A stretch of 33,822 nucleotides of DNA from positions 1 to 33,822 of the IMG/VR virus record IMGVR_UViG_3300045117_000212. One strand, written 5' to 3'. This DNA comes from a virus. A model generated the notes under the pieces. That model saw only the letters and a list, made by a program, of their open reading frames with translations, made no database searches and was not told the DNA's origin. Shown here one piece after another: positions 8,226 through 30,670 of the stretch; position 1 is the first letter of the stretch; the number at the start of each line of letters is the position of its first letter. A program made the translations under genes and the position numbers.

Positions 8226-8665
8226 TGGGCTTTTACAAGAACTTCATAAGGCTCCACGAATTCACGAAAAAGAGCAAATGGAGCTGCGACGGGCAAACAA
8301 AGGTCTTCAACAAATACAACAAACTATCCTTCCCAAGCGACGAGTCAAACAAACTTACTTTTGACGAATGGATTATACAGGCTGCAATCGCCTACAAGCT
8401 GCATGAGAACGGAGTGCCTTTTATCTCAAACAAGCACTTCTACAAGATAGACGTTTTCGGGGACGTTGTCGGGAACGAAACAATAAAGATTCTGAGGCTG
8501 GACAAAATGGAAGCGATACAAAACCGCCCCTCGGAGATTTTCAAGACAATAAACTATGTGAAATACAAGGAGATTCAGGACTTCATGGAGATGCTTTACG
8601 AATATGCGGACGGGATAGTGAAGAACTCCCAGAAGCCGCCAAAGGGAAGCATGAAGGGTTTATGA
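8225..8665 (+). CDS. Hypothetical protein after the large terminase
   Basis: About 146 residues, MGFYKNFIRLHEFTKKSKW.... The start at 8225 overlaps the terminase stop (TGATG); an ATG at 8219 is also possible. Aromatic and charged, soluble, no motifs recognised. Its position between terminase and portal suggests a packaging or head role, but this is inference. The stop overlaps the first copy of the 16-bp late promoter. Confidence 0.6.
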   Translation: MGFYKNFIRLHEFTKKSKWSCDGQTKVFNKYNKLSFPSDESNKLTFDEWIIQAAIAYKLHENGVPFISNKHFYKIDVFGDVVGNETIKILRLDKMEAIQNRPSEIFKTINYVKYKEIQDFMEMLYEYADGIVKNSQKPPKGSMKGL

Positions 8666-8680
8666 GTGTTATTTAAAAAG
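8665..8680 (+). promoter_or_regulatory. Late promoter element, copy 1
   Basis: AGTGTTATTTAAAAAG, starting on the last base of the upstream TGA. TATA-like core; ends 22 nt before the portal ATG at 8703, so the transcript may start at or next to that ATG. A purine-rich AGGAGGAGG lies between. Confidence 0.7.
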
Positions 8681-8702
8681 TCGGCAGGAGGAGGTTGAAG
8701 GT

Positions 8703-10919
8703 ATGAAAATACTCGGCTTTGAGCTATTCGGAAGTGGGGCAAAAACGCCAGTATCGGAAGCGCGTCCATTGAAGGCATACAGTTCCAGCGAGATGGACGT
8801 CGTTGAAATGCAGTTCCCTCGACTTGGGCTTGAATCGCTTTTCAGTTACGTTTATTACTCAGACACCTACCGCGCCATAACGGATGCGCTCGTAAGGGAA
8901 CTCTTCAGGAACGGCGCAGACTTCACTCCAAAGTTCACGGCAAAATGCACAAACAACCTCTGCCAGGCGGAATTTGACTACGAAGTTGAAAACTGCCCAG
9001 AGTGCAACAGCCCGACAAGGGAGCCCGACCACCAGCAACAGTGGATTTTCAAGGAGTTCGTTTCCGAAGCAAACGCAAACGGGCAGCCATTGGAAGCAGT
9101 AATGAAATCAATCGAGATAGACCTTGACGCGGTTGACAACGGCTACCTGCTTGTCCTGAAAGCCTACACGTTTGGCGCACAAGGGGAAATAATCGGCGCA
9201 GACGTAAAAGAACTGCTCCGAGGCGACCCAAGAGTAATGAGGAAGATAATCGACAGGAAAGGGAGACCGGGCTACGATTGGGACTCTGGGAAAAGAATAC
9301 ATGTCTGCCCCATGCACCGCAACAAGGCGCAGGAAGGCCCAAGATGCTCCGACTGCCAGCTAAAACTCTACCCTGCCTACTTCGTGGCTTTCTCCGAAAT
9401 TCCAACGTATTACCTTGCGGGAGAAGTCTGCCACAGGACAAAATACTCGCAGACAATCTACTACGGTTTCCCCCCGATACTCACGCTGCTCCCAAAAATC
9501 CAAATCCTTCTGGCGCAGGACAAATACATGAGGGCATACTACTACGGGAAAAAATCTCCAAAGGGTATTTTGGCATGGATGACAGGCTCGGTGGAATCAG
9601 CGGAAAAGAAATGGTCGGAATTTGTGGACAGGGCAATAGAGGAGCCAAACAACGTGTTCCCTCTTTTCATAAATCCCGGGCAAGCCAACACAAACGGGGA
9701 CGTGGTGAAATTCATCGACCTGATGCGGACGCCACAAGAAATGCAATACATAGACGTGCGGCAGGAATTAATCACGAAGATAGGAGCATTCCACGGGGTA
9801 ATGCCGATTTTCCAAGCAGACCTGTCACAGAGCGCGGGCTTGAATTCAGAAGGATTGCAGGTAACGGTAACAACGAGGGCGGTGGAAACAGGGCAATCCG
9901 TCCATAATTCATTCTTCGCTTTCTTGGGCTATCAGTTGGGGCTCGTCGATTGGGAATACAAGCTCAATCCCCCGGAGGAAAAGGACGAGATGGCGGAACT
10001 GCAACGGGAAGCCCAGAAAATCGCAAATGCACAAGGAATGAAGAACCTCGGATTTGAGGTGAGCCTGGATGACAGCGGCGAGTTCAAATTCACGGAAAAG
10101 CCGGAAGGGATGCAAAACCTTCCTTTTGGACAGATACCCGAGTTTGGCGCAGGAAGCACGGACGAAGCAAGCGGAACTCCCGACAAAGGCAGATTAGACG
10201 GGGAGCCTTTTGACGAGGGACGAATGATGAAGACCGCTGCCGAAAAAAAAAATTCCCAAGACCAGTATGAGGAAGCGATAAAAAGCGCCATTTCAAGATT
10301 CACACGAGGGAACGCAAAGGAGCTAATCACCGCAATCTCAAGAAGCCTCGTGATGAAGTTTGATGCAATCACCGACAAGTATTTCACAAGAATTTACAAG
10401 GAGAAACTAATCGAATTGGAAAACAGGCTTGGAATAGATTTGGGCTTCACGAAAGACGACAGGGACACATTAATGGCGCTAAAGTCCCAAAGGGTTCTTT
10501 CAAGGGCATACCAAGACCTTGCCCAAAACGTGGAAAAAATGGTGAATGAGGCAACAAGCAAATCCGAATCCAAGGAGCAATTAGCCTCATACATCGACGA
10601 GATAAAAACCTCTACAAGCAGCAACGCCGAGCTAATCGCAAGGACAGAAACGGCAAAAATACAGTCGGCGGCTAATCTTACGAATTTCCGCAAAGCATTC
10701 CCCAAGGGCTTCATGGTAAGGCACGCAGGCCCGACTGACGAAAGGACAACAAAGACGTGCAGAAGAATCATGGAGAGGACAAGGAAAGGAGTCACGGAAG
10801 CGGAATACTACGACACCCTGAAAGAGGAATCAGCAAAGGACTTCCCGACATGGACCGTGGATAGGGAAGCCCCTGTAGCCCATATCCAATGCAGACACAG
10901 GCCCGAGGTGCTGGTTTAG
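8703..10919 (+). CDS. Portal protein with zinc-finger insertions and C-terminal MuF domain
   Basis: Seven hundred and thirty-eight residues. The central part (VFPLFINPG ... FIDLMRTPQEMQYI ... FGVMPIFQ-like stretch, TTRAVETGQS) resembles phage portals. Two Cys-rich insertions lie in the N-terminal third: C-T-N-N-L-C ... C-P-E-C and H-V-C-P-M-H ... C-S-D-C, unusual for portals. The C-terminal ~170 residues (LIARTETAKIQSA ... GPTDERTTKTC ... HIQCRHRP) match the Mu gpF/SPP1 gp7 head-morphogenesis domain, so the gene is a portal-MuF fusion. It forms the ring through which DNA enters, with the MuF part inside the prohead. Ends in a TAGTG overlap with the next gene. Confidence 0.85.
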   Translation: MKILGFELFGSGAKTPVSEARPLKAYSSSEMDVVEMQFPRLGLESLFSYVYYSDTYRAITDALVRELFRNGADFTPKFTAKCTNNLCQAEFDYEVENCPECNSPTREPDHQQQWIFKEFVSEANANGQPLEAVMKSIEIDLDAVDNGYLLVLKAYTFGAQGEIIGADVKELLRGDPRVMRKIIDRKGRPGYDWDSGKRIHVCPMHRNKAQEGPRCSDCQLKLYPAYFVAFSEIPTYYLAGEVCHRTKYSQTIYYGFPPILTLLPKIQILLAQDKYMRAYYYGKKSPKGILAWMTGSVESAEKKWSEFVDRAIEEPNNVFPLFINPGQANTNGDVVKFIDLMRTPQEMQYIDVRQELITKIGAFHGVMPIFQADLSQSAGLNSEGLQVTVTTRAVETGQSVHNSFFAFLGYQLGLVDWEYKLNPPEEKDEMAELQREAQKIANAQGMKNLGFEVSLDDSGEFKFTEKPEGMQNLPFGQIPEFGAGSTDEASGTPDKGRLDGEPFDEGRMMKTAAEKKNSQDQYEEAIKSAISRFTRGNAKELITAISRSLVMKFDAITDKYFTRIYKEKLIELENRLGIDLGFTKDDRDTLMALKSQRVLSRAYQDLAQNVEKMVNEATSKSESKEQLASYIDEIKTSTSSNAELIARTETAKIQSAANLTNFRKAFPKGFMVRHAGPTDERTTKTCRRIMERTRKGVTEAEYYDTLKEESAKDFPTWTVDREAPVAHIQCRHRPEVLV

Positions 10920-11308
10920 TGGGAGACGAGGCGGCTTATCTGGCATTCATAGATGAGGTTCTCACAATCGTAGCCTACAAAATACTGAACCAGGCAAACA
11001 AGAACATAGACGACTACAAAATAAACGACACCGGGCGACTTAGGGGCTCAGGGGTGGTGGAACCAGCTGGAGAGGAATATTTGATTGTCTGGAAAGCCCC
11101 TTATTCGGGGGCAATTGAGTTTGGCTCACACCCACACATGGTTCCAGCAGAAGTCCTGTATGGCTGGGTAAGGAGAAAAATGAGAATAAGCGATGACAGA
11201 AGAGCATGGGGAATCGCTTATGCAATCCAGAAGGAAATAGCCGAAAGCGGACAAACAGGAAGGCACTTCATAAGGGACGCAATAGACATGATGGCTGCCA
11301 ATCCTTAG
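10919..11308 (+). CDS. HK97 gp10-like head-tail/neck protein
   Basis: One hundred and twenty-nine residues from a GTG overlapping the portal stop, with GAGGTG about 9 nt upstream. The motif D-T-G-R-L-R-G-S followed by YSGAIEFGSHPHMVP and a tail helix is the HK97 gp10 family signature. Such proteins usually act in head-tail joining or tail completion, though the gene here lies early, between portal and protease. Good family match, role inferred. Confidence 0.75.
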   Translation: MGDEAAYLAFIDEVLTIVAYKILNQANKNIDDYKINDTGRLRGSGVVEPAGEEYLIVWKAPYSGAIEFGSHPHMVPAEVLYGWVRRKMRISDDRRAWGIAYAIQKEIAESGQTGRHFIRDAIDMMAANP

Positions 11309-11322
11309 TGTTATTTAAAAAG
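11307..11322 (+). promoter_or_regulatory. Late promoter element, copy 2
   Basis: AGTGTTATTTAAAAAG on the TAG stop of the gp10-like gene. It ends 21 nt before the ATG at 11344 but only 6 nt before the ATG at 11329, which favours 11344 as the protease start. Confidence 0.7.
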
Positions 11323-11343: not shown

Positions 11344-12387
11344 ATGCAAGCGCACATGACAAACTTGGCTTCACCTGCAATTGAGGGCAGTCCATCCATA
11401 TCACCCCCAATACTGATTAAGAATGAAGGTTTGCCCTCGCAGGATGAGGCATTTTACATTCTCAACTCAGACGAAAGGCTCTTTACGGCGTGGCTGTCCG
11501 TAGAGATAAAGGACAACCAAGGGCAGATAATCCCAATGGGCGAGTTCAAAAAGTCAATGCCGATGTGGATGGCAAGAGGGGCGCCGATAACAATAATGCA
11601 CTCCAACATGGTGGTAGGAAAGTGCCTCAATTACCAATTTGCGACAAACCCGGCTACGGGAGCAGAAGGAATACTTGTAACAGGATTGATTTTCAAAGGA
11701 AACACGCTTGACGACCAAGCATGGGAAAAGGTGCAGTCAAAACAGTTCGCAGGCGTTTCAGTAGGCGGGACGGCTTCACTCAAAAAATCAAAGGACGGCA
11801 TATTGAGGGGCTTTGAACTGTTTGAGATGGCTCTTGCAGATAAACCCGCAAACCCGGCAGCAGTAATAGAGACAGTTTCTCAGGTGGCAAAAGCAGATAC
11901 AACGCCAGTAAAAACGGAAAAAATCAACAAAGGTGATTTTGTGCCAGATGATGAAAAGAAACCCGAGGAGGAAAAGCCGAAGGTGGAAACAAAAGTCGAA
12001 CCTCCAAAAGAGGAAGCTCCGCCAGTGGCTCCTCCAAAAGAGGAAACAAAAACAGAAATGCCTCCGACTTCAGCACCACCAGCAGAAGCACAATCGGACA
12101 CGGCTGAGATGAAGGCGATACTGGTAAAAATCTATGAAATGCTCACATCCGCTCAACATGTCAAGGAGTCTGTGAAAACAGGAACAGCCCCTGTAGAGAC
12201 AAAATCGGACATAACGGCAGTGAGAAAATCAGAGGCGGAAATATCAACGCCGAGACCAGATGCCGTTTCTGACTTCTCCCCAAAAGAGGAGAAGAAAACC
12301 CTTGGCGACAAAGCGGTTGAAATCGCAAAGGGACTGGTAAGGTTCAACCCCCGCGAAGACTACCGGGCAAGAAGTAGCCAAAACTAA
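11344..12387 (+). CDS. XkdF-like prohead protease fused to scaffold-like tail
   Basis: Three hundred and forty-seven residues from ATG 11344 (352 from 11329). Residues 30-200 follow the XkdF putative serine protease pattern: FTAWLSVEIKDNQG, the H of 'ITIMHSNMVVGKC', and the S of 'FAGVSVGGTA', the likely catalytic His and Ser. The second half is rich in Pro, Glu and Lys, ending in helices, as in scaffold domains. The position directly before the capsid gene fits a protease-scaffold that shapes and matures the prohead. The promoter overlaps the preceding stop. Confidence 0.8.
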   Translation: MQAHMTNLASPAIEGSPSISPPILIKNEGLPSQDEAFYILNSDERLFTAWLSVEIKDNQGQIIPMGEFKKSMPMWMARGAPITIMHSNMVVGKCLNYQFATNPATGAEGILVTGLIFKGNTLDDQAWEKVQSKQFAGVSVGGTASLKKSKDGILRGFELFEMALADKPANPAAVIETVSQVAKADTTPVKTEKINKGDFVPDDEKKPEEEKPKVETKVEPPKEEAPPVAPPKEETKTEMPPTSAPPAEAQSDTAEMKAILVKIYEMLTSAQHVKESVKTGTAPVETKSDITAVRKSEAEISTPRPDAVSDFSPKEEKKTLGDKAVEIAKGLVRFNPREDYRARSSQN

Positions 12388-12396
12388 GGTGATAAA

Positions 12397-13596
12397 ATGC
12401 AATGGAACTATGGAAGCCAAGAAAACCTTGCTCTTTACGAGAGGCTCATCCAAGAGCAATACAAAGGAGTGCCAGCCTCTCCGTCTGACGTAACGTCAGT
12501 GAACAAAGCCGATGCGCCTATACTGTCCTCAACGACAGGCTTTTTCAATCCGGTTTATGGGGCGTCGGTAATGCAGCAACTCGCCCACGACAGCGTCCTT
12601 TTCGGGATGCTGCCAAAATACCCCTACAAGAAAAGGGGATTCAGGGCTGAAACCACGAGATTCGTGACAAGCGGAGTGGGTGTTGCGGAAAACGCAGCAG
12701 TGCCTGACAGCGTGAAAAACGCAATTGCAGCGGTTGATGTTCCAATAAAGGAGCACGCAATCACTGTTGAGATTTCAGAAAGACAGAGGCTCCTGATGGA
12801 AGCGGGGGACGACACAGCATATACCGACTACGCGGGAGTGATGGAAAGCGCAAAGAGGAGTTTCTCCTATGCTTACGACGCTGACATAAATACCGACGTA
12901 ACAACAGTCGCCTCCAACAACTCGGAGTCAATCGACAGGGTTGTTTCCTCATATGCAGAGGTTACTAACTGCGCTGATGTGAATGCAAACGACGCTGACA
13001 TTTACTCACTGGACAGGGATGCAGCTGCTTCATGGACGGATGCATATGTGAATCATGGCTCCAACGTAACAAGGGTTCTTTCAGACACCATCGTTAGGGC
13101 TGTTATGAGCAATACCGTTTCCAACGGGGCAGACCCCAGGACCCAAGTCTGGTATACAGGCGCAGACACTTACGAGGCACTTGTCGGATTGTATGGCACA
13201 CAGAACAGATACGCTATGCAATTCACAGGCCCCGGGACAAGTGCAGTGTCCGGAGAGCCCGCAAAAGGAATCGCTTACGGGATGGAGATGGCGACCCTTT
13301 ACGGAAGACCCTTCTTCGTTGCACCAACAGGAAAAGTGGTTGCAAACGGAGCAGCAGGAGCAGGAACGGCAATATCAAACCTCTACCTGCTTGACTTGGG
13401 AACCGACCCAATCTATGGCGAACCAATATTGGGCATAAAGACGCTCAGGGCTCCAATCCTTGCAAAGACAGGACTGATGGACGGTTACCCTGCGCACGCA
13501 AAGCTCGGCAACGAAACCATCATCTACGCTGCAATGGAGCTTGAATGCAAGAACTTTAAGCGACAGGGCAAAGCGAGAGACCTTGCAGCACCCTAA
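12397..13596 (+). CDS. Major capsid protein, HK97-type
   Basis: Three hundred and ninety-nine residues. AGGTGAT, a perfect SD, lies 4 nt before the ATG. The sequence has the expected N-arm, then an E-loop-like stretch (PYKKRGFRAETTRFVTSGVG), a long helix region (VEISERQRLLMEAGDDTAY) and C-terminal TDPIYGEPILGIKTLRAP, in keeping with HK97-fold capsid proteins. Neighbours (protease before, small head proteins after) support this. There is no signal peptide and only about three N-X-S/T sequons, unlike the fibre proteins. A hairpin follows the stop. Confidence 0.8.
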   Translation: MQWNYGSQENLALYERLIQEQYKGVPASPSDVTSVNKADAPILSSTTGFFNPVYGASVMQQLAHDSVLFGMLPKYPYKKRGFRAETTRFVTSGVGVAENAAVPDSVKNAIAAVDVPIKEHAITVEISERQRLLMEAGDDTAYTDYAGVMESAKRSFSYAYDADINTDVTTVASNNSESIDRVVSSYAEVTNCADVNANDADIYSLDRDAAASWTDAYVNHGSNVTRVLSDTIVRAVMSNTVSNGADPRTQVWYTGADTYEALVGLYGTQNRYAMQFTGPGTSAVSGEPAKGIAYGMEMATLYGRPFFVAPTGKVVANGAAGAGTAISNLYLLDLGTDPIYGEPILGIKTLRAPILAKTGLMDGYPAHAKLGNETIIYAAMELECKNFKRQGKARDLAAP

Positions 13597-13619
13597 ATGA
13601 TTGAATGATATTCCCTGTG

Positions 13620-13647
13620 TGCGCCGTGGGTAATTTTTAACGGCGCA
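13620..13647 (+). terminator. Hairpin after the capsid gene
   Basis: Perfect 8-bp arms TGCGCCGT and ACGGCGCA around a 12-nt AT-rich loop (GGGTAATTTTTA). It lies 23 nt after the capsid stop and 25 nt before the next start. It may stabilise or partly end the capsid mRNA; the TAATTTTTAA in its loop could also be a weak TATA box. Confidence 0.55.
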
Positions 13648-13672
13648 GAATAACCCTAAGAGGTGTGTGTTT

Positions 13673-13972
13673 GTGGCAAAAGTATTGAGGACGAAAGGGG
13701 GAGTGCGGGAAATCCAGTATTATGTGGCGGAAGGCGGAGGCTACCAGTTCGGGGATTCAGGAGAAACGGCTGGAATGTGCCTTGTGTTGAAAGAAAAACA
13801 CGTGTCCGAACTCCTGGCTGCACATGGGGACGATTTGGAAATTGTCCAAGAAAGCAAATGGCCTGAAATCTACAAGAAAAAGGCACAATCGTTTGAAGAA
13901 GACCTATTGGGGAAAGCGACAGCGGCGTTCCCTGAGGTCGTCGAGAAACTGACCGGAAAGAAAAAAAAATAA
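13673..13972 (+). CDS. Small head protein of unknown function
   Basis: Ninety-nine residues from GTG 13673 (MAKVLRTKGGVREIQYYV...), chosen because GAGGTG is 7 nt upstream. The N-terminal part looks beta-rich; the end is a Lys-rich helix. It lies between capsid and other structural genes, so a head accessory role is likely but unproven. Confidence 0.6.
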   Translation: MAKVLRTKGGVREIQYYVAEGGGYQFGDSGETAGMCLVLKEKHVSELLAAHGDDLEIVQESKWPEIYKKKAQSFEEDLLGKATAAFPEVVEKLTGKKKK

Positions 13973-13984
13973 TGAGGGATTGAC

Positions 13985-14239
13985 ATGGCATTTTCAAGCA
14001 CTTTGGTATTCAAAACTGTGATGGGGAACAAGAGCATGGAAGTTTGGTCTTTCAATTCTGCGGGCGTGACTTCTGGAAACATTGCCACAGGTCTCGCAAA
14101 CATAGCGGCAACCAAACTTGCAAACAAGACTGCTCAACGAGGAGTTGTGGACGACACGACCACCGCAGGGACAGTCGCACTCACAGGCCTTACATCAAAT
14201 GATGTTGGCTATGTGTTTGTTTGGGGACATTCGCTTTAG
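13985..14239 (+). CDS. Small hypothetical structural protein
   Basis: Eighty-four residues, rich in Thr, Ala and Gly: 'NIATGLANIAATKL' and 'GTVALTGLTSNDVGYVFVWGHSL'. No signal peptide. Composition and position suggest a capsid decoration or fibre-base protein. GAGGGA upstream serves as SD. Not recognised further. Confidence 0.55.
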   Translation: MAFSSTLVFKTVMGNKSMEVWSFNSAGVTSGNIATGLANIAATKLANKTAQRGVVDDTTTAGTVALTGLTSNDVGYVFVWGHSL

Positions 14240-14250
14240 AGGTGTTTCAC

Positions 14251-15354: not shown

Positions 15355-15370
15355 GTTTTGGTGATTCAAA

Positions 15371-15958: not shown

Positions 15959-15966
15959 GGGAAACC

Positions 15967-19197: not shown

Positions 19198-19656
19198 ATG
19201 GTCGAAAACAGCACAGCCAAAGTCGAGGCAGCCCCTCCAGCAAAAGGAATCGCTACAGAAGGAACTACATCAACCCAGCTTCCGCAATGGGATTTTTTTC
19301 AATGGGACTACTGTATGTATGAAGGTCTGGTAACGTCAGGTGCACCTCCTGATGGGGAAGCAGTTGTTGAAACAACCAAACAGGCAAAAGGTTCAGTAGA
19401 AGCACCGAAAAGGTCAAAATCATTTGTGGAAGCCACAAAACAGGCAACGGGGTCGGTAGAATCTGCCATCAGGTCAAAATCATTTGTGGAAACAACACGG
19501 TCAGCAAAAGGTTCAGTAGAAGCACCGAAAAGGTCAAAATCATTTGTGGAATCTGCCCAAATGGCTAAAGGCACAGTAGAAGCAGTCAAACGTTCAAAAT
19601 CATTTGTGGAAGCCACAAAACAGGCAAGGGCATACATTGAGCCAACGAAGGTTTAG
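19198..19656 (+). CDS. Decapeptide-repeat protein
   Basis: One hundred and fifty-two residues; AGGAGG 7 nt before the ATG. The N-terminal 60 contain 'TSTQLPQWDFFQWDY' and no known motif. Residues 60-150 are about nine copies of a 10-residue unit, consensus V-E-A-x-K-x-x-K-x-x, alternating GS/SF endings (VEAPKRSKSF, VEATKQAKGS). The regular V/E spacing suggests stacked beta turns or a charged fibre. No signal peptide. Not assigned to a family; its place between fibre and connector genes suggests a virion or surface role. The stop carries promoter copy 3. Confidence 0.7.
   Translation: MVENSTAKVEAAPPAKGIATEGTTSTQLPQWDFFQWDYCMYEGLVTSGAPPDGEAVVETTKQAKGSVEAPKRSKSFVEATKQATGSVESAIRSKSFVETTRSAKGSVEAPKRSKSFVESAQMAKGTVEAVKRSKSFVEATKQARAYIEPTKV
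19381..19620 (+). repeat. Four 60-bp tandem coding repeats
   Basis: Exact 60-bp period starting at 19381, 19441, 19501 and 19561; each has TCAAAATCATTTGTGGAA at the same place. Each encodes two decapeptide units. It is not CRISPR: repeats are contiguous and coding. Confidence 0.85.
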
Positions 19657-19670
19657 TGTTATTTAAAAAC
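19655..19670 (+). promoter_or_regulatory. Late promoter element, copy 3
   Basis: AGTGTTATTTAAAAAC on the TAG stop of the repeat-protein gene. Followed by GATGAGGT and the non-ATG start of the connector gene. Confidence 0.65.
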
Positions 19671-19699
19671 AAGCAGGATGAGGTATAACCAAAATTCGG

Positions 19700-20623
19700 G
19701 TGATTTTTATCGGAGTCTGGTTTGCTTGGCCCGCGCCAACAACTGAAAGCAGCTGGAACACGAGTCGAATATACAGGGCAACCTCACAATCAGGTTCTTT
19801 CAGCCTTTTGGTATCACAGACATTGTCCCTCTCTGCACCGGACACGACTTACTACGATGAGTCTGGGACAGGCACTCACTGGTATAAGTATTCATTCTAC
19901 AACTCGTCAAGCACAGTAGAAAGCCCATTATCTGACGCAATTCCCGCCACAAGAACAACAGTCACCTATTGCCAGCCGCAGGACGTTGCCGAACTCCTGC
20001 AATTCAGGAACAGCCAAGAACTCCATATGTTCGACTCACAAACAAAGCCAAACATTTTTGAAGTCCTTACCTACATCCGAAGGGCAGAAGACTACATCGA
20101 CAACAAGACAGGACACGCTTGGAGGGCAAGATATTCCGGAACCCCTGGCAACGACGCAACCGCTGCCGAGTGGGAACACCTTGACCAGCACATACCCTAC
20201 AAGAAGGGGCAAGGCTATCCTCTTTACATGAAACATCGCATGGTAAGAACACTTGCCGCTGGTTCAGGAGACGCCGTTTCTGTCTGGAATGGCTCCTCAT
20301 ACACCGATTACCTCGCAAGCAAAACAGAAGGAAGAAACAATGACTTCTGGGTGGATTACGAGAGAGGGATTCTTTACCTTATTGATGCTTCATTCGTGAG
20401 CCTTGACGATGCGGTGAGAATAAAATACCGATACGGAGATTCCACCGTTCCTGCCGACATAGAACACGCAGCGACACTTTTGGCAGCCATCCATGTCCTT
20501 GAAGGGGATGAAAGGAGCACCGTATTCCCGGAAGGCTCGTTCCGTTCCGCCATAGGGGAAAAAATCTATGACCTGAAAAAACAGGCGGAAGAAATAATCA
20601 GAGCACACACTGAGACGCAGTAG
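19700..20623 (+). CDS. Connector protein with Fn3-like N-terminus
   Basis: Three hundred and seven residues from GTG 19700; the in-frame ATT at 19694, 9 nt after GAGGT and 23 nt after the promoter, is an alternative. Residues 1-95 look like a fibronectin-III-like fold (FAWPAPTTESSW ... SRIYRATSQSGSFSLL ... SPLSDAIP). From about 100 on (CQPQDVAELLQF ... ILTYIRRAEDYIDNKTG-like) it resembles head-tail adaptor proteins that seal the portal. The fusion is unusual. Position before the tail-completion gene supports it. Confidence 0.65.
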   Translation: MIFIGVWFAWPAPTTESSWNTSRIYRATSQSGSFSLLVSQTLSLSAPDTTYYDESGTGTHWYKYSFYNSSSTVESPLSDAIPATRTTVTYCQPQDVAELLQFRNSQELHMFDSQTKPNIFEVLTYIRRAEDYIDNKTGHAWRARYSGTPGNDATAAEWEHLDQHIPYKKGQGYPLYMKHRMVRTLAAGSGDAVSVWNGSSYTDYLASKTEGRNNDFWVDYERGILYLIDASFVSLDDAVRIKYRYGDSTVPADIEHAATLLAAIHVLEGDERSTVFPEGSFRSAIGEKIYDLKKQAEEIIRAHTETQ

Positions 20624-20637
20624 TGTCATTTAAAAAG
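20622..20637 (+). promoter_or_regulatory. Late promoter element, copy 4
   Basis: AGTGTCATTTAAAAAG on the TAG stop of the connector gene; one base differs (C for T). A 35-nt gap to the ATG at 20673 leaves a leader with AAACCCGTTAGTT and GGTGG. Confidence 0.65.
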
Positions 20638-20672: not shown

Positions 20673-21119
20673 ATGACACAGGCAGACCCCGAAAGCGTGA
20701 TTCAAACGCTTCTCACAAACAATTGGACTTCTGGCAATACCGACAACAGAACCCCTAAGTTTTACATTTCTTCGGAGCCCTCCGTTTCCAAATTCCTAAG
20801 CCATGAGAATCTGGGGGACATCATCCTTATTTACGAAAGGAACAGGCAAAACATCAAGAATAGCACCGGTTCTTCGTCCAAGAGGGCAATCTACCATGTT
20901 TCACTTGACTGCCGTTCTACTGTGTCCAGAGCGCATTTTATCAAGTTTATTGGGGAAGCGGAAAGGGTGTTGGATGCGAACATAGTCAATCCTGCAACGG
21001 GCTACAATATCTTAGACCCAACGGGAACAATCCCCATCTCAAATGACAGCACGAAAGGTTTTTGGAGAGGTGTAATCGAGTGCGCGTTAATCAAGAGCAA
21101 TGTGACAAGAAACGCATAG
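20673..21119 (+). CDS. Probable tail-completion/neck protein
   Basis: One hundred and forty-eight residues from ATG 20673 (GGTGG 3 nt upstream). Pattern 'IQTLLTNNW' at the start, then 'DIILIYERNRQNIKN ... IYHVSLDCRSTVSRAHFIKFIGEAERVL ... FWRGVIECALIK' is that of small proteins that end the tail tube, between connector and tail tube genes. No direct family motif; the role comes from order and general fold. First gene of the tail unit. Confidence 0.55.
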   Translation: MTQADPESVIQTLLTNNWTSGNTDNRTPKFYISSEPSVSKFLSHENLGDIILIYERNRQNIKNSTGSSSKRAIYHVSLDCRSTVSRAHFIKFIGEAERVLDANIVNPATGYNILDPTGTIPISNDSTKGFWRGVIECALIKSNVTRNA

Positions 21120-21129
21120 GAGGGAGTTT

Positions 21130-21351: not shown

Positions 21352-21353
21352 AT

Positions 21354-22316
21354 ATGGCGAAACATTCAGTCCAACACGTATTGCTGTTCGGGAAGGAAAC
21401 AACCTATGGAACAGCCGTCAGTCCCACAAAGGACTTGGGGTTGAGGCAAAACTTCTCAATCGCAGCAGAACAGGCGGCAAGGGAAATCCATACAACGGGA
21501 CAGGCTGGTGCAGCACAAACAGCAGCAGGAAAGGCAGACCTGAAAGGCTCACTTGAACTGCTGATGCAGCATGGGAGACCATTGGAATACATATTTGGGA
21601 CAGTAGCCCACGCACAGTCCACGAATGATTGGACGCACACCTTCACAGTGGCAGACGACCTTCCAAGCATGACGCTTGAAAGTTCTTATGAGGACAGTTC
21701 AAGTGATGTGTCCCACACCCTTAATGGCGTGAAATTCACCTCTGCCACAATAGGCCTTGCATTGGACGGCTCTTTATCATTCAGGGCGGATTGGATGGCA
21801 AAAGACACTGTGAATGCAACAACCGCCTCCAGCGACGTTTTAAGCACATTGGCGTCTTTGCATGACTTCCATGGGGCATTCAAGACAGGAACCGAAGGGG
21901 GAGAAACAGCCGTTGCAGAAACCCAGAGCTTTGAGATTACTCTTAACAGGAACACCAAGAAAATTTGGGGGCTTGGAGACAGGGAAAACACGAAAGCGGC
22001 TGGAATGCAACTCAACGTCGATTTTACGGCAACTGTGGGTTTCAATGACAACACCGAGTTCGCAAGACTGTTAGGCGGGACTTCCATCGGTGCAACGGCA
22101 GACACGCCATTTGGAGTTGTGATGTCGGCAGACAATGGAACCGCATTGGGTTCTGGAAAGAGGGCATTGACGATGACCCTGCAAAATGTCCATTACCGTT
22201 CTGTGAATATCACCACACCGATAGGTGACTGGATTATGGCGGATGTCGCAGGGACAGGGACGGTTTCTGCTACCGGCTGCACATACGTCGATAACATCTC
22301 ATCTGGCTCATGGTAA
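21354..22316 (+). CDS. Major tail (tube) protein
   Basis: Three hundred and twenty residues. The beginning 'LLFGKETTYGTAVSPTKDLG' is the classical opening of phage tail tube proteins; 'SFEITLNRNTKKIWGLGDRE' and the following strands fit the tube fold. It would form the tail tube wall. No sheath gene is seen nearby, which suggests a non-contractile tail. A hairpin follows the stop. Confidence 0.8.
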   Translation: MAKHSVQHVLLFGKETTYGTAVSPTKDLGLRQNFSIAAEQAAREIHTTGQAGAAQTAAGKADLKGSLELLMQHGRPLEYIFGTVAHAQSTNDWTHTFTVADDLPSMTLESSYEDSSSDVSHTLNGVKFTSATIGLALDGSLSFRADWMAKDTVNATTASSDVLSTLASLHDFHGAFKTGTEGGETAVAETQSFEITLNRNTKKIWGLGDRENTKAAGMQLNVDFTATVGFNDNTEFARLLGGTSIGATADTPFGVVMSADNGTALGSGKRALTMTLQNVHYRSVNITTPIGDWIMADVAGTGTVSATGCTYVDNISSGSW

Positions 22317-22319
22317 TCA

Positions 22320-22342
22320 GTTTAGGTGAAATTTACCTAAAC
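22320..22342 (+). terminator. Hairpin after the tail tube gene
   Basis: Perfect 8-bp arms GTTTAGGT and ACCTAAAC around a 7-nt loop, 3 nt after the stop. Together with the capsid hairpin, it may protect or attenuate an abundant structural mRNA. The sequence AAACCCGTTAGTT just after also occurs at 20653. Confidence 0.55.
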
Positions 22343-22368
22343 CCGTTAGTTTGTTTGGAGGCGAGAGA

Positions 22369-22919: not shown

Positions 22920-24352
22920 TTGAGATACCCGTTGGAGTAAGGCTCAAAGTCCTGAACCTAAACGAATTCAAGAAGTCAGTAGGTTCCGCCGCATCAGCGA
23001 AAGCAGGAGGAACTACGGGCGGAACAAGCGCGGGCAAAGACGAACTTACGGGAATCATAGCCAAAGGGAACTTTCTGGCACTGGCGGCACAGAAAGTCTT
23101 GGAGAAGATGGCTGACTTATTGAGAGGTATTTTTGACAAGATGAAGTCAGCCTCTCCAGCTTTGCAGGGAATCTTATTGACATTTGAGAAGGCAATGATG
23201 ATTTTCTTCAAGCCGTTTGGGGATTTCTTGGCTTTGCTTTTGAGACCAATGGCATTGCTCTTAATCAAGTTTGCAAGGGATTGGGCTAAGGGGCTAAAAG
23301 GGATTATTCCTAATGCAAAAGACGTAGGGAACGCCATTGGTGGAACAGTCAGCGGATTTATTGGCGGTGGAGGCGCTGGTGGAGAGGGTGGAAAGCCCGG
23401 CATTCCAGGGGCTGCTGGCGAAACAGGAGAGCCCGGCACAACGAATGTAAATCTAAATGCTAAGGATGTGGCAGATTCTATTGGTAAATCCATTATCACA
23501 TTTCTTGGGGACTTGGGAACTGAATTGGCGAAAAAGGTCAATACATTCGCCCCTGACATTGCTTCATTTATTGCAAAACTCAGCGATATGGTTTTTTCTT
23601 TCATCGTTGGTTTAGGATTTGCAATTTTTAACTTCCTGAAAGATTTGAAAATAGAGCAAGCGGGGAAAATAGCAACAGAGATATTGTTGGGGATAGGGAA
23701 ACTTCTAATGGCAGTGATAATGTTCATTATTATGGTGATAACAGGACTCTTGATTTTTGTCTTTAATGCATTGAAAGACAACGCTGATGCTATTTGGACT
23801 CTGATAAATATCTACGTCATTGAACCACTGGGCAAGTTTTTTGGCAGGGTGGTCGGTGTTTTAGAGGAGAACTTCAATGAACTTAGGGACGATGTCATTG
23901 CCCTTTGGCGAAAGGTTACTGCAAAAGTTACTGAGATAAGAGATAAGTTCATAACCGAAATAGAAACATGGAAAACAAACATAGGAGGAATTCTCACGAC
24001 ATTGTATAACAACTTGTCAAATGCCCTTTCCGACATAGGGAACAGGGTGAAAAAGATTATCGATGAAGCTTTCTCAGTCGGCAGCCGGGCAGTAAATGAC
24101 ATTTGGAACCAAGTCCTCGGGAAAAAACAAGTAGGGTCAGATTTTATCCCAGAAACGGGGATGTATATGCTGCACAGGGGCGAACAGGTTGTCCCAACAA
24201 CCAGGCAAGCGCCAACTCGTCCAATGAACGTTTCCTTTGGCAACGTTGTAATCAATGTTCCTTCTGGAACGGAATTGGACGAAGACCGGCTTGCCAGAAA
24301 AATAGCGGAACAACAACGACTGATGCTGAGGAGGGCAATGTCCTACGGATGA
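22916..24352 (+). CDS. Tape measure protein
   Basis: Four hundred and seventy-eight residues. Helical, with strongly hydrophobic stretches at about 240-285 (FIVGLGFAIFNFL, MAVIMFIIMVITGLLIFVF). Near residue 410 the tape-measure signature 'GSDFIPETGMYMLHRGEQVVP' is plain. Around 150-170 it has a collagen-like G-x-y run (GKPGIPGAAGETGEPG). The length predicts a short tail, about 70 nm by the usual 0.15 nm per residue. It sets tail length and probably meets the host membrane. Confidence 0.85.
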   Translation: MIEIPVGVRLKVLNLNEFKKSVGSAASAKAGGTTGGTSAGKDELTGIIAKGNFLALAAQKVLEKMADLLRGIFDKMKSASPALQGILLTFEKAMMIFFKPFGDFLALLLRPMALLLIKFARDWAKGLKGIIPNAKDVGNAIGGTVSGFIGGGGAGGEGGKPGIPGAAGETGEPGTTNVNLNAKDVADSIGKSIITFLGDLGTELAKKVNTFAPDIASFIAKLSDMVFSFIVGLGFAIFNFLKDLKIEQAGKIATEILLGIGKLLMAVIMFIIMVITGLLIFVFNALKDNADAIWTLINIYVIEPLGKFFGRVVGVLEENFNELRDDVIALWRKVTAKVTEIRDKFITEIETWKTNIGGILTTLYNNLSNALSDIGNRVKKIIDEAFSVGSRAVNDIWNQVLGKKQVGSDFIPETGMYMLHRGEQVVPTTRQAPTRPMNVSFGNVVINVPSGTELDEDRLARKIAEQQRLMLRRAMSYG

Positions 24353-24356
24353 TTTT

Positions 24357-24734
24357 ATGACTACAACCTTGAATGCCATTTCGCTTGAAGAAGTGCAGAC
24401 GGAGCACGTTTCAATAGAGACGGGGCTTGTTCCGCTTCCGCCGCCTGACGACGGAACTTCAACAACAGCGGACACCATAATTGTTTCGCTCATCGCTCCC
24501 ATGAGGCAGTTTCAGATAACAGGGATAAAAGTCGATACAATCGCCAACCTCAGGACATTTGCCAGCGGGATAATTTCGGCGGCACAGAACCAAGAAACAG
24601 CCCACACCTACCATTCGGACTTTTTCAACGCAAATTACAACGTGAAAATCAGCGGCTACACCTTTGATTATGTTGCAGGGGAGCCGGCGACCCTTGAATA
24701 CCAATTGACCTTGATTGAGGGCAGTTCCATATGA
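24357..24734 (+). CDS. Small tail protein
   Basis: One hundred and twenty-five residues, beta-rich, no motifs recognised: 'TEHVSIETGLVPLPPPDDGTSTTAD ... VSLIAPMRQFQITGIKVDTIANLRTFASGI'. Lies between tape measure and hub; the stop overlaps the hub start (ATGA). A distal tail or baseplate adaptor is the best guess from order. Confidence 0.5.
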   Translation: MTTTLNAISLEEVQTEHVSIETGLVPLPPPDDGTSTTADTIIVSLIAPMRQFQITGIKVDTIANLRTFASGIISAAQNQETAHTYHSDFFNANYNVKISGYTFDYVAGEPATLEYQLTLIEGSSI

Positions 24735-26227
24735 CGAAATACATAACAGTGAAATTGAACAGCAACACGGTTACCACTTATGTCCGAAACTACAAGATAG
24801 ACAAAAGGATAAGCTCGGATGCGCTCATAGACGAGTGCAACATAGAATTTTTCAAATCCTGTTCCCCCGTTCCCGCCGTGGGGCAAACGATAGAAATCTA
24901 CTCAGGTTATTCGGCAAACCCGACAGTCAGGAAGTTTTACGGGATTGTGAGAGACGTCCAAACGTCAAAGGAGATTTACAAGGCGAAATGCCTCTCCCGA
25001 TTGGTCCTTGCCGCTGATGCCCTTGTAAATACCGTCTATAATTCCAACGGCTCAACCGCAGGTGTCGTTTCGGCGATAGTGGATGACCTTTTTGAGACAT
25101 ACGCAGGGCTCACCTGTTCGGTGGTAACAACGCCAGACGTAATCTCCAAGTTCATTTGCAGGAACACCGACGTTCTTGAAAGGTGCGTCCTATTGGCGCA
25201 TCAGGTCGATTATGACATACACTATGACCATGATGCCGACGTTGTCTATTTCAGACCAAGGGAGTATTCCACCAATTCGGGAACAATCTACATTGGAACG
25301 GCAAGCAACTCCGTTTCCCAGGCAGTCAAGTGGAAGGACATCGGAATACAGGACTTGTTCAACAAGCTCACAATCTACGGCGCAACGGTCTATGTTTCGG
25401 ACACAAAGAGCTTCACGGCTTCAGCGGCACAAACAACAACAACCCTCAGCCATATCCCTGACGTGGTGAAAGTTACCAAGAACGGAACAGAGCAGGTAGG
25501 CGGTTTATCAGGCAGCACCACATCTTACGATTACCAAGTGGACAGGGAGAACAAGAAAATAACATGGGCAGTCGCTTTTGCAGGAGGGGAAAGCGTCGTG
25601 GTAACCTACTACTACAATGTCCCCGTTCCTGTCCAAATGCAGGACGCCACCTCGATAGCGGCTTACGGCACGATACACAAGATATTCACTTTCACTGACC
25701 TTACCACAGTCGATGATGCGATACAGCGGGGGCAGCGGCTTCTGAACAACTACAAAAACCCATTCAAGTTGTCAGAGCTATACCTGTTGCCAGACTCCGT
25801 AAATACCCTGAACCCGCAAGTGGGGCAGAGAATAAGGGTCACGGACAATCTCGTGTCGATAAACGACTACTTTGTGATAAAGCAAGCGACAGAAGAATAT
25901 CCAGAGAAAGGGATGCTGCTGACTATAAGCGACAAGGAGTGGAAGTGGCAATCGACGGAAATATCAACACAGCTTCGCATTAAAAGGCTTGAAGAACAGC
26001 TGAACGAAGGCGACCAAGTTGTTTCACAGGTAATAACAGGCGGAGCAGATGCCGCCGCAGCAAGAACAACGTTGGAGGCATTGGCAGCCAGAGTAAATGA
26101 CAGTTTCATATTGGGACATTGGCTAAACGGACAATTGGCAAGGGGAATTATCTTAGATGACTTTGAGTCAAGTCCCTTATCAAATTGGACAGGAACATCC
26201 TGCACCCTTTCGGAGCAAACCGCATGA
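24731..26227 (+). CDS. Tail hub/baseplate protein ending in a truncated jelly-roll module
   Basis: Four hundred and ninety-eight residues. The front resembles tail hub (gp27-like) proteins: 'VGQTIEIYSGY ... RKFYGIVRDVQTSK ... LVLAADALV'. A coiled-coil-like stretch follows at about 415-445. The last 25 residues (ILDDFESSPLSNWTGTSC...) look like the beginning of a carbohydrate-binding jelly roll, but the frame stops after 'LSEQTA'. The rest of such a module appears in the same frame from 26711. It would form the tail tip. The stop overlaps the next start. Confidence 0.7.
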   Translation: MTKYITVKLNSNTVTTYVRNYKIDKRISSDALIDECNIEFFKSCSPVPAVGQTIEIYSGYSANPTVRKFYGIVRDVQTSKEIYKAKCLSRLVLAADALVNTVYNSNGSTAGVVSAIVDDLFETYAGLTCSVVTTPDVISKFICRNTDVLERCVLLAHQVDYDIHYDHDADVVYFRPREYSTNSGTIYIGTASNSVSQAVKWKDIGIQDLFNKLTIYGATVYVSDTKSFTASAAQTTTTLSHIPDVVKVTKNGTEQVGGLSGSTTSYDYQVDRENKKITWAVAFAGGESVVVTYYYNVPVPVQMQDATSIAAYGTIHKIFTFTDLTTVDDAIQRGQRLLNNYKNPFKLSELYLLPDSVNTLNPQVGQRIRVTDNLVSINDYFVIKQATEEYPEKGMLLTISDKEWKWQSTEISTQLRIKRLEEQLNEGDQVVSQVITGGADAAAARTTLEALAARVNDSFILGHWLNGQLARGIILDDFESSPLSNWTGTSCTLSEQTA

Positions 26228-26709
26228 GCAGCATAAAATACGTCGTAATGTTTTCCATTCTTTTGGCTACTTTTGGCTGTTTAGGATTCCTATTTCCACA
26301 AGACGGCAAGCAGAAATATCCGTGGGAAGGACTCTCTACGGGCGCTGGCGGCAATCTGTCAGTTGTATTTGGAAGCGGCATCAGTTCTGTTTATTTCAAC
26401 GCAAGCACCCATGTTTCAAGGAACGTTTCAGCGACCAATCAGACAAGCTCGATAGCGTTGTTCAATGTCACGAATATCGGAGGCAACAACACATCAATAA
26501 ACATGAGCATCAATACGAGCATTACGGGATTCACGGTCAGGTGCGCCCAACACTACAACCAGACGGGCCTTACGAACCTGACCATATCTAACCGGACAAT
26601 CGCAAACATCAGCACAAACGCAACGGTCAGGATTTGGTGTTGGGCTGACTTTTACTACGCAAACAAAAGCGCAGCAAGGAACTTCAATATCAGCGTGACA
26701 GAGGGATAA
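26224..26709 (+). CDS. Exported, very sequon-dense small protein
   Basis: One hundred and sixty-one residues. N-terminal signal or anchor segment (MSSIKYVVMFSILLATFGCLGF). The rest has about sixteen N-X-S/T sequons in about 130 residues, by my count, and is likely heavily glycosylated outside the cell. A start inside the hub gene's final codons (ATGA) and an inserted position in the middle of a split jelly-roll suggest it came in as an extra (moron-like) gene. May mask the host surface or exclude other viruses; unproven. Confidence 0.65.
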   Translation: MSSIKYVVMFSILLATFGCLGFLFPQDGKQKYPWEGLSTGAGGNLSVVFGSGISSVYFNASTHVSRNVSATNQTSSIALFNVTNIGGNNTSINMSINTSITGFTVRCAQHYNQTGLTNLTISNRTIANISTNATVRIWCWADFYYANKSAARNFNISVTEG

Positions 26710-26710
26710 A

Positions 26711-27223
26711 ATGCCGGGATTTGGGGGAACATTCGACATCAACGACTCGCTCGTGCTCGTGGGCAGCAAGAGCCTCAAAGCGGTGGCAAGCGCAAGCACA
26801 TTCAGCATCGCCACAACTCAGAGCTTCGGAGACCTCTCGACATACACAGGAGTCGGCTCAGGTGCGCCTACAAGCGGAACTGTGGGCATTTGGGTCTATT
26901 GCGCTTCGGGGGAAATTACCTCCGTAACGCTCCGCATGGGCAGCAGCTCAATCAACTACTCGGAAGTGGCGGGAGTGAAGACATATACCAACGGGACAGA
27001 CACCCAAGACGGCTGGAACTATTTTGTTTTCCGCCTGACAAATGCGACAACAACGGGAACGCCCGTCTGGACAGCAGTAGCATACGCAAGAATCCAAGCG
27101 GTAAGCACAACCACACCAACAGTTATATTTGATTACTTCGCAATAGGGACAGGAAACGTAATCGGATTGAATGGAATGGGGGACAGACGAACAGACTACC
27201 AACTGTATAGCGTTACATATTGA
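26711..27223 (+). CDS. Carbohydrate-binding jelly-roll-like module, likely 3' half of a split module
   Basis: One hundred and seventy residues; GAGGG before the ATG. 'INDSLVLVGSKSLKAVA ... TTQSFGDLSTYTGV ... GTVGIWVYCASGEITSVTLRMG ... WNYFVFRL ... ARIQAV ... VIFDYFAIG' is a typical carbohydrate-binding jelly-roll, but without the usual 'DDFE...W' first strand. That strand is at the end of the hub gene in the same reading frame, 484 nt upstream. Probable receptor-binding tail part. Confidence 0.65.
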   Translation: MPGFGGTFDINDSLVLVGSKSLKAVASASTFSIATTQSFGDLSTYTGVGSGAPTSGTVGIWVYCASGEITSVTLRMGSSSINYSEVAGVKTYTNGTDTQDGWNYFVFRLTNATTTGTPVWTAVAYARIQAVSTTTPTVIFDYFAIGTGNVIGLNGMGDRRTDYQLYSVTY

Positions 27224-27232
27224 GGTGAAACC

Positions 27233-28291
27233 ATGCCGGGCACAGCAGAGGGAGCATATCCAAAGTCAAACGGCGACATTTTGTATGCAAGTGAGACTAA
27301 TAATGTGAAAATGCACATCGCAGGTCAGCGATATGTAGGGGACGGTAGTGATGGGGCACTGAGCGTGACAAGCGGGACAACGACAATATCGAGCAGTGTA
27401 AAAAGATACACCTCCATGTCTATCAGCGCAGGTGCGACGCTCGCGTTTGGAACAGTAGGAAAATTCATAATTTACTGTCAAGGCGATTTTACCCTAAATG
27501 GAACACTTTCTTTGGGTAATAAGGTAGGCACCTCTCCAACAACATTCGATTCAAGTGCAGGAAGCACGGGGGATGGGAACCCCGGAGGAGCAGCAGGAGT
27601 GGTGAACGCCCCATTGTTCGGTTCTTTTTCTGTGGTGAAACTTGATTGGATAGGCTCTGAGGGTTCTAATGGAGGCGTTGGCAAAACTAATTCTTACGGC
27701 AATGGCGGAGGCGGCGGCGGAGGCGGTAGTCTTCTTGTGGCAGGTGGAGCCGGTGGCAATGGTGGAGTGTCTGGGGGCGCAACCGCTGGTGCGGGTGGTG
27801 CAGCGGGCGTCGGAAAATGCGCTGTCATTATTTTTGTGGGAGGAACAATCACATTCGGTGCGTCATCATCCATCGTTGGCACTGGCAACTCGGGTTCTGT
27901 CGGAGCTGGCGGTAGTTTTCCGACCAACAGTAGTGGCTCAGGAGGCGGAGGCGGTGGAGCAAGCGGATTCGTTATGATTTTTGGAAATAAGGAAGCAACC
28001 CTCACAACAGGGGCAACAGTTACTTTAGTGGGAGGAGCAGGTGGTGCAGGTGGAGCCGGAGCTGGGGGGACAAATGGAGGCGGCGGAGGAGGCGGTGGCG
28101 GAGGCTCGGGGGGAGTTTTTGTCTTATTGTGCAACGGAACCCTCTCCAACAGTGCAACTATATCAGTTTCGGGCGGTGCAGGGGGGGCTGGAGGAGCCGG
28201 AGGCAACGCTGGAGGAGCAGCAGGAGCTAATGGCTCCAATGGCAATACTGGTCTATCATTTGTCCTAACCAACTCATACGCGATTTCATAG
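27233..28291 (+). CDS. Glycine-rich adhesin/tail-tip fibre
   Basis: Three hundred and fifty-two residues. The N-terminal 100 are beta-rich (a beta-helix-like run 'TMSISAGATLAFGTVGKFIIYCQGDFTLNGTL'). Then four to five glycine runs (GNGGGGGGGGS, GSGGGGGGAS, GGAGGAGGAGAGG, and others) alternate with short beta segments (KCAVIIFVGG, GFVMIFGN, GGVFVLLCN). This resembles the polyglycine-sandwich adhesins of T-even-like phages (gp38). Host recognition is likely. GAGGTGAA precedes the ATG. Opposite-strand Pro-rich ORFs here are shadows. Confidence 0.7.
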   Translation: MPGTAEGAYPKSNGDILYASETNNVKMHIAGQRYVGDGSDGALSVTSGTTTISSSVKRYTSMSISAGATLAFGTVGKFIIYCQGDFTLNGTLSLGNKVGTSPTTFDSSAGSTGDGNPGGAAGVVNAPLFGSFSVVKLDWIGSEGSNGGVGKTNSYGNGGGGGGGGSLLVAGGAGGNGGVSGGATAGAGGAAGVGKCAVIIFVGGTITFGASSSIVGTGNSGSVGAGGSFPTNSSGSGGGGGGASGFVMIFGNKEATLTTGATVTLVGGAGGAGGAGAGGTNGGGGGGGGGGSGGVFVLLCNGTLSNSATISVSGGAGGAGGAGGNAGGAAGANGSNGNTGLSFVLTNSYAIS

Positions 28292-28299
28292 GTGGTCTT

Positions 28300-29199
28300 A
28301 TGGCAGTTGGAGCAGTAATCACAAACAACGGCGAAGACCTGTTGCACTACAGGCTTTATGGGACAGGCTCAAAGAGTGCTGTTACAAAACTACACATTGG
28401 AGTGGGGACAACAACACCAGCCGAAGGAGACACGAATATACAGACACTTGTGCCAGTAACTTCCCAATTAATCAACAAGTGCGACACACCAGGGGATTTT
28501 TCACAAAGCACCGATGCAATAACGCCAACAGCGAACACAACCACTTACAAAGAAGGCTATGGGACAACGGACAACACTTCCCTTAACATCGGAAAATCAG
28601 GGACAACGGAGGCCCTTGTCTATTATCGGGACACTGTTTCAATCGACATGAGCGGAACATCGCCGTATATGTGGTGCTGGCTGCATATCCTGAACTCAGG
28701 CGCACTTGCAAAAATCTCCAATGTGCAGCTTTATGTAAGGCAAGGCGCAAATTACCGATATTGGCAAACAGGTGTTGCTTCACTTGCTGTCGGCTGGAAC
28801 CTGATAAAAACGGGGGTATTCACCAGTTACACAGGACAAAGTGGAACAGCACCCACTCTTTCGGCCATAGACACAATAGAACTGCGAATCAACACAACAG
28901 CATCGAGCGATACCTTTAGCTTGGGGGACTTGAAGATGGACTTCTTCCATTGGGAACTTTTTGCCAACTCCAATATTGGGGCGCTTACCGGCTATCCGAC
29001 TGTTTCAGGACAGGTGGCGACAGCCCGTTATTACATCTCATCCACAAAGGCGCTTGGCTACGATTTGAGGGAATGTGGGGAGTTCAACACCGACTCTACT
29101 CCGGTCATGTATTCCCATGACGTCCATAACAGCCTCGGCTCTTCCGGAAAAACAAGCGAGATTGAACTGCATTACATTCTTACACACACAATCAGTTAG
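28300..29199 (+). CDS. Tail fibre/receptor-binding protein
   Basis: Two hundred and ninety-nine residues; AGGTGG before the ATG. N-terminus 'AVGAVITNNGEDLLHYRLYGTGSKSA', a fibre-like base. The middle has a complete jelly-roll ('TSLNIGKSGTTEALVYYRD ... MWCWLHIL ... VGWNLIKTGVFTSY ... IDTIELRINTTAS ... LKMDFFHWEL'). The C-terminal part (YYISSTKALGYDLRECGEF) is beta-rich. Last gene of the tail unit; stop carries promoter copy 5. Confidence 0.65.
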   Translation: MAVGAVITNNGEDLLHYRLYGTGSKSAVTKLHIGVGTTTPAEGDTNIQTLVPVTSQLINKCDTPGDFSQSTDAITPTANTTTYKEGYGTTDNTSLNIGKSGTTEALVYYRDTVSIDMSGTSPYMWCWLHILNSGALAKISNVQLYVRQGANYRYWQTGVASLAVGWNLIKTGVFTSYTGQSGTAPTLSAIDTIELRINTTASSDTFSLGDLKMDFFHWELFANSNIGALTGYPTVSGQVATARYYISSTKALGYDLRECGEFNTDSTPVMYSHDVHNSLGSSGKTSEIELHYILTHTIS

Positions 29200-29213
29200 T
29201 GTTATTTAAAAAG
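29198..29213 (+). promoter_or_regulatory. Late promoter element, copy 5
   Basis: AGTGTTATTTAAAAAG on the TAG stop of the fibre gene; ends 20 nt before the ATG at 29234, the spacing expected for a leaderless transcript. It should drive the lysis unit. Confidence 0.7.
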
Positions 29214-30660: not shown

Positions 30661-30670
30661 GGTGGTTTGA

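Follow-up and report, generated by a model that had tools for sequence, protein, structure and literature searches.

Repeated TATA-containing elements as putative late promoters in the genome of a probable archaeal tailed virus

Background

By analogy, the closest known kind of element to the one described here appears to be the promoter-bearing intergenic repeats of halovirus HF2 (Haloferacalesvirus). These repeats, of class I and class II, have proven promoter activity; they drive a reporter without viral genes, changes in their BRE were without effect, and in IR4 the BRE was found to be dispensable (PMC8707807). In SIRV2, the early genes share a virus-wide promoter, the consensus of which differs among archaeal viruses (PMC11065993). 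A trinucleotide near the TATA box has also been described for SIRV1 and SIRV2 promoters, as far as the work is summarized in a later paper (Kessler et al. 2004, via PMC5569661). How the viruses of uncultivated archaea, those of DPANN included, control their genes is almost entirely unknown.

The present analysis covered the whole of a 33,822-base virus record (the window), in which a 16-mer with a TATA core is found five times. The late promoters of T4 similarly consist of a short repeated word defining a late regulon; they belong to a bacterial sigma system with sliding-clamp activation and are unrelated to the window element. Like the HF2 repeats, the element is a virus-specific, TATA-containing word that recurs at gene junctions of an archaeal tailed virus, and it heads late genes as the class II repeats head late morphogenesis genes; however, the HF2 repeats are 29-58 bp long, truly intergenic and conserved across the genus, whereas the window word has 16 bp, runs over stop codons, stands before five late modules and is confined to a single virus (PMC8707807). 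Comparison with the motifs quoted in PMC8707807 revealed no obvious likeness to the 16-mer. Among the relatives examined, the portal and protease positions were kept and the word was not, the virus's own genus being represented by one near-identical contig. With SIRV2 it has in common that one extended BRE/TATA consensus stands before many genes of one virus, but the SIRV2 promoters precede early anti-defence genes and have a purine-rich BRE, whereas the window copies precede virion and lysis genes and have an AGTGTTA flank (PMC11065993). As summarized in PMC5569661, the SIRV1/SIRV2 promoters likewise combine a TATA promoter of host type with a cis element specific to the virus, except that this element consists of three bases downstream of TATA, compared with about 7 nt upstream of TATA in the window.

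Overall, as far as can be judged from sequence, the five copies appear to be a real set of late promoters and an instance of the repeated promoters of archaeal tailed viruses. What is new is that each virus has a word of its own, that the promoter places are kept across a diverse group and that fusion to stop codons is frequent.

Results and discussion

Five copies of the element at gene junctions

Scanning of the window revealed five copies of the 16-mer AGTGTTATTTAAAAAG, starting at 8665, 11307, 19655, 20622 and 29198, with the + strand carrying all five and the - strand none, which confirmed the near-identical copies reported in a preliminary description; all were at gene junctions and none elsewhere. 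Three of the five (8665, 11307 and 29198) were exact, and the others had one change each, the copy at 19655 ending in C and that at 20622 (AGTGTCATTTAAAAAG) having C for T. With up to 3 mismatches allowed, the 5 matches in the window compared with 0.33 expected, 5 was reached in 0/100 shuffles, the reversed-pattern control gave 0 matches, and no sixth copy was present on either strand of the whole window; the number of exact copies expected by Markov models of order 1 to 4 was about 1e-5. On the + strand of the window, the core ATTTAAAA occurred at the five element sites only. In every copy the TATA core, TTTAAAAA, was extended upstream by either AGTGTTA or AGTGTCA, and the identity ended sharply at 16 nt, outside which the flanks were unrelated. 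The element ranked among the best-scoring TATA sites of the window.

Every copy overlapped the stop codon of the preceding gene, as had been described. Copy 1 (8665..8680), in front of the portal-MuF gene, had only the A in common with the stop TGA (8663-8665), and the other four had the AG of TAG in common: copy 2 (11307..11322; stop at 11306-11308) in front of the protease/capsid/fibre unit, copy 3 (19655..19670; stop at 19654-19656) in front of the head-tail adaptor gene, copy 4 (20622..20637; stop at 20621-20623) in front of the tail unit, and copy 5 (29198..29213; stop at 29197-29199) in front of the putative lysis unit.

Genes headed by the element

Among sequenced phages, the portal and capsid proteins matched archaeal viruses only, namely the haloarchaeal HVTV-1/HCTV-1/HCTV-5 and the methanogen-associated vir335/vir519, and portal homologs were found in MAGs labelled 'archaeon' and 'Candidatus Nanoarchaeia'; it is therefore apt to read the element as an archaeal TATA box. 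A DPANN-type host can reasonably be inferred. The terminase was nearest to that of Bacteroidetes phages, so the modules of this genome would be of mixed origins. The record is probably incomplete, because both ends cut methylase genes.

All genes given below are on the + strand. The unit after copy 1 (8703-11308) contained, by homology, a portal protein fused to a MuF-like domain (8703..10919) and ended with a neck/tail-completion-like protein (10889..11308; phrog_5). Copy 2 was followed by a unit (11344-19656) of a head maturation protease (S78-like; 11344..12387), the major capsid protein (12397..13596; phrog_24667) and LamG-like and fibre proteins, and copy 3 by a head-tail adaptor-like protein (19700..20623; phrog_17057 and phrog_442). 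The tail unit after copy 4 (20673-29199) was opened by a small protein (gene 20673; 20673..21119) and included the tail tube protein (21354..22316; Phage_tube_2) and the tape measure. In the unit after copy 5 (29234-30916), the matches were weak: a transglutaminase-like cysteine protease domain, a putative lysis protein (29234..30310; C93, below the curated cut-off), and a holin-like small protein (30671..30916). Judged by homology, with the lysis matches weak, the genes headed by the element were all virion or lysis genes and none was early. The proposal that each copy begins a functional unit was thus mostly borne out, except that the terminase unit, which had no copy in front, falls outside the set and that the lysis label reflects weak matches. 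The most T-rich 40 nt of the window (31485..31524, + strand; 27 T by base count) followed the last late gene and is the probable terminator of a late super-operon. The elements themselves had no T run on the + strand, and a transcription terminator at these sites was rejected.

Proposed function as archaeal TATA-box promoters

It is highly probable that the five copies are archaeal TATA-box promoters restarting transcription at the late modules via the host machinery. This is supported by their high TATA scores, by the recurrence of TATA sites at the homologous portal and protease junctions in relatives (see below) and by the archaeal-virus-like portal and capsid. We infer that host RNA polymerase with TBP/TFB would use the TATA core together with the extended upstream AGTGTTA, that the promoters would fire within a co-directional late region of about 22 kb, each restarting transcription at its module (portal/neck; protease-capsid-fibre; adaptor; tail; lysis) late in the viral cycle, and that nested transcripts would run on to the T-rich terminator near 31.5 kb. 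From such a nested-promoter layout, the dosage of genes along one late super-operon can be predicted. A purine-rich BRE is frequent, although not obligatory, in archaeal promoters, and the AGTGTTA/AGTGTCA flank is not of this kind; this lowers the probability of an archaeal TATA box but is compatible with one, because the BRE is dispensable in HF2 IR4 (PMC8707807).

Start codons, leaders and stop-codon fusion

The distance from the end of the element to the ATG was 22 nt (8703), 21 nt (11344) and 20 nt (29234); after the copy at 20622 the next ATG was 20673, and after that at 19655 the first common start codon was GTG 19700, the putative start. Counted from the start of the TATA core, the ATG followed at 29-31 nt for the portal, protease and lysis genes and at 44 nt for a fourth gene, and in relatives mostly at 27-35 nt. 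An archaeal TATA box is an AT-rich sequence of 8 bp located about 26 nt ahead of the transcription start, and TTTAAAAA would fit this description at these distances. In HF2 promoters, TATA begins at -26 (PMC8707807). By analogy with this spacing, transcription would begin about 26 nt from the first base of the TATA core, with predicted leaders of 0-6 nt for protease, lysis and possibly portal, and longer ones for the adaptor and tail genes. The Shine-Dalgarno energy was weak at 29234 (-3.7 kcal/mol) and 11344 (-6.7), and that of the portal (-12.2), located 8-16 nt before the ATG, was the strongest among all window genes tested. Thus, of the three leaderless mRNAs expected earlier, the spacing fits at 8703, 11344 and 29234, but the strong Shine-Dalgarno makes a leaderless start uncertain for the portal, leaving it plausible for the protease (near-leaderless as predicted from 11344, with an alternative in-frame ATG at 11329) and lysis genes. 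Because of this Shine-Dalgarno, ribosomes may also translate the portal from mRNA that reads through from the terminase unit, or the portal may have a slightly earlier start. A Shine-Dalgarno of such strength between TATA and ATG would not be expected in an mRNA that is purely leaderless.

In the window, the stop codon ended 5-6 nt before the TATA start. In the related record L108, the TAA of AGTAAATT was the stop itself in four copies and a TAG abutted or overlapped in two, and in both copies of L097 and 2/3 copies of L132 the stop was in the same register within the word. Stop fusion is frequent and not universal, since L133 and L062 did not follow the rule. An economical reading is that a promoter of about 36-40 nt is squeezed between abutting genes, beginning on the upstream gene's stop codon because a compact genome would let its upstream edge share the stop bases.

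Promoter positions kept in related viruses

Relatives were gathered by portal and capsid profiles, and each TATA-like site lying 18-50 nt upstream of a start codon was given a rank among all windows of its own contig. Stop-anchored candidate starts were used, as alignment-based starts had mis-set the portal starts. In the first set of relatives, an excess of TATA was found for portal (p 6e-8) and protease (p 4e-6) compared with 0.55 for capsid and 0.12 for terminase; the second set gave 1e-4, 7e-11, 0.27 and 0.46, respectively. After deduplication the set comprised 69 loci, with the window among them; when tested with the window excluded, Fisher p was 6e-13 for portal (n=32), 2e-21 for protease (n=57), 5e-3 for capsid (MCP), 9e-4 for neck, 0.016 (weak) for the gene-20673 family and 0.56 for terminase (terL), all these p values treating viruses as independent and being weakened by their relatedness. 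Across about 30-57 related contigs, TATA was thus enriched in front of portal and protease genes, weakly so in front of capsid genes, and not enriched in front of terminase genes. At the homologous portal and protease junctions, the flanks of the TATA sites differed among relatives. Elements 1 and 2 therefore occupy probable promoter places of the whole group, the exact word belonging to this virus.

Words private to single viruses

The exact 16-mer was found in 37 stretches of IMG/VR, only one of which had two copies, namely the near-identical contig L039/L043 (13.7 kb; 4/13,680 positions different from the window, 99.98% identity); the remaining matches look like chance. When related viruses were checked for the same element, as had been proposed, several junction positions were shared but not the word, which was restricted to the window and this contig.

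The 80-nt regions before portal and protease were then compared for strong ungapped matches within and between viruses; since the comparison was designed after the window and L055 had been seen, the second set is the fairer evidence. A portal/protease word was common within the virus in 9/28 testable viruses, window included, and between viruses in 2/756. The corresponding values were 4/9 within vs 0/72 between viruses for portal/gene 20673 and 6/27 vs 2/702 for protease/gene 20673, and the capsid-gene (MCP) controls gave 0/24, 0/54 and 0/29. In 19/28 relatives tested, the portal and protease promoters had no common extended word. Examples of private words were GATAACTATATAAACAAACGTAGTACTA in L132 (identity up to 34/35), TTTTTAAGCAAACCAACTGCTTCTTTT in L133 (up to 27/27), AG(T/C)ATTAAATA(G/C)AACCTA in L055, TTCTCAAATAC(A/G)TTTA in L057, GTAAGCGAAAAA(C/T)TTAAAA in L097 and AGTAAATTATTTAAA in L108; in L126, a 38-nt word was common to portal and neck (36/38 identical). 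The best parallel to the window seems to be L108, a 35.9-kb record with nine word copies on one strand (reversed control, 0) preceding portal, protease, head, tail and holin-like genes. In the window as in L108, L132 and L133, the virus's private word stood at three junctions, those of portal, protease and gene 20673, the last being that of the fourth element of the window. The continuation of L055, L088, contained no additional copies of the L055 word, and the distant portal relative HVTV-1 no repeated promoter word. A boundary test for 16-mers (up to 3 mismatches) clearly singled out only the window; it failed to pick up L055 and L057 owing to the greater length or divergence of their words. 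A repeat search with any AT-rich word was swamped by low-complexity AT sequence in the relatives, and AGTG as a group-wide BRE (3/20 relatives' promoters, p 0.009 post hoc) was discarded as too weak.

These results suggest that different private words at several of the same junctions constitute a common but fast-changing on-switch of late genes. Late modules are computably marked, with fixed places and a private word per virus, so that late regulons become predictable from metagenomes, short promoters become available for expression tests and ideas about what reads the late promoters of archaeal viruses become testable.

Reader of the word and origin of its identity

A virus-specific reader, host-specific optimization and simple copying of promoters within a genome are all possible explanations for the private words. 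The extended word may be read by a virus-specific factor (a virus-encoded activator, or TFB in a modified or alternative form) that co-evolves with it and switches on the late modules together, a possibility that we hold only tentatively. It would account for words that are private to each virus, repeated within it and longer than the TATA core, for the nine L108 copies before structural and holin-like genes, and for the absence of the window word from three other promoter-like sites (6587, 5404 and 32474). Against it, no TBP/TFB homolog or clear late activator was found among the proteins scanned of this incomplete genome, in which small zinc-ribbon proteins are present and no candidate regulator stood out; moreover, mutations in the HF2 BRE and alpha region were without effect and the promoters were active without viral factors (PMC8707807). 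The virus-encoded transcription factor suggested in the preliminary description thus gained no support as stated, although, given the virus-private words, it is still a tentative candidate. As a doubtful extension, one late layout, with a stop-fused promoter heading the portal, protease and tail modules, may be common to a clade of tailed viruses that infect archaea, in some cases probably DPANN hosts; the word would be rewritten per virus together with a virus-specific reader, thereby insulating the late regulons of co-infecting relatives.

It is likewise conceivable, if rather improbable, that the identity arose by recent copying or gene conversion, ordinary host TATA promoters having been homogenized per genome with no special reader. 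The identities of 34/35 and 27/27 in L132 and L133, which include bases outside TATA and BRE, and the complete difference of words between relatives agree with this, but in the window the identity stops sharply at 16 nt with unrelated flanks, and the copies are in register with stop and start codons, for which selection on promoter function is the simpler explanation. That the element is instead a general promoter consensus of the host, its repetition not being special to late genes, is unlikely: in vir519 (a Methanofastidiosa virus) one word does precede seven genes in several genome parts, portal among them, but the window word is missing from the other promoter-like sites, and in 279 genomes from the archaeal phylum in which portal homologs occur, a proxy for the host, the 18-mer TTAGTGTTATTTAAAAAG was not commoner than its reversed control, so that the proposed check for equal frequency in host genes revealed no enrichment within that proxy. 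A bacterial-type or RNA-level signal (a sigma-factor -10 site, a processing site or TAGTG stop-start reinitiation) is most improbable, for although the terminase is nearest to Bacteroidetes phages and TAGTG contains GTG, the portal and capsid have their matches in archaeal viruses only, the corresponding places in relatives carry TATA sites with different flanks, and in 4/5 copies the GTG is not in frame with the gene that follows, on which ground a mini-ORF was also rejected.

Host-read TATA promoters thus remain the preferred reading of the five copies. Upstream of the terminase unit, a different promoter-like TATA was located inside an inverted repeat with 10-bp arms.

Other promoter-like sites and repeats in the window

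The TATA sequence ahead of the terminase unit (TTTTATAAG) was enclosed by an inverted repeat with perfect 10-bp arms (AAACCTAATA...TATTAGGTTT, bp 6576–6606), which is likely to be an operator of a different control class. A perfect 22-bp palindrome (GTATGTAACTATAGTTACATAC, bp 31597–31618) was directly followed by a promoter-like site, TATATATTATTA, where the gene cluster of the right end begins. The HNH and LAGLIDADG endonuclease genes each had their own TATA about 30 nt upstream of the ATG (bp 5404–5434 and bp 32472–32503), both sites being without the 16-nt late word, and DNA-methylase-like coding fragments surrounded the LAGLIDADG gene.

In bp 4058–5409, a ParB-N domain and a DNA methylase domain were encoded in different frames that met at a run of eight G residues (about bp 4609–4616), which was the same in the near-identical contig L043; this arrangement may reflect a programmed frameshift or a pseudogene. 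It was also noticed that a small cysteine-rich early protein gene was present in two diverged copies (bp 2207–2587 and bp 3124–3564), and that the gene immediately 5′ of element 3, the third late word copy, contained 60-bp tandem repeats (bp 19324–19677), encoding 20-residue KSFVEATKQA-like repeats.

Promoter words in other viruses

The related 35.9-kb record L108 carried nine copies of AGTAAATTATTTAA(A), all on a single strand and upstream of head, tail and holin-like genes; in several copies, the TAA of the word was the upstream stop codon. In Methanofastidiosa virus vir519 (GenBank:BK063666), a CTTTATAAGGTACTGA-like promoter word was located upstream of seven genes, including that for the portal, spread over several parts of the genome.
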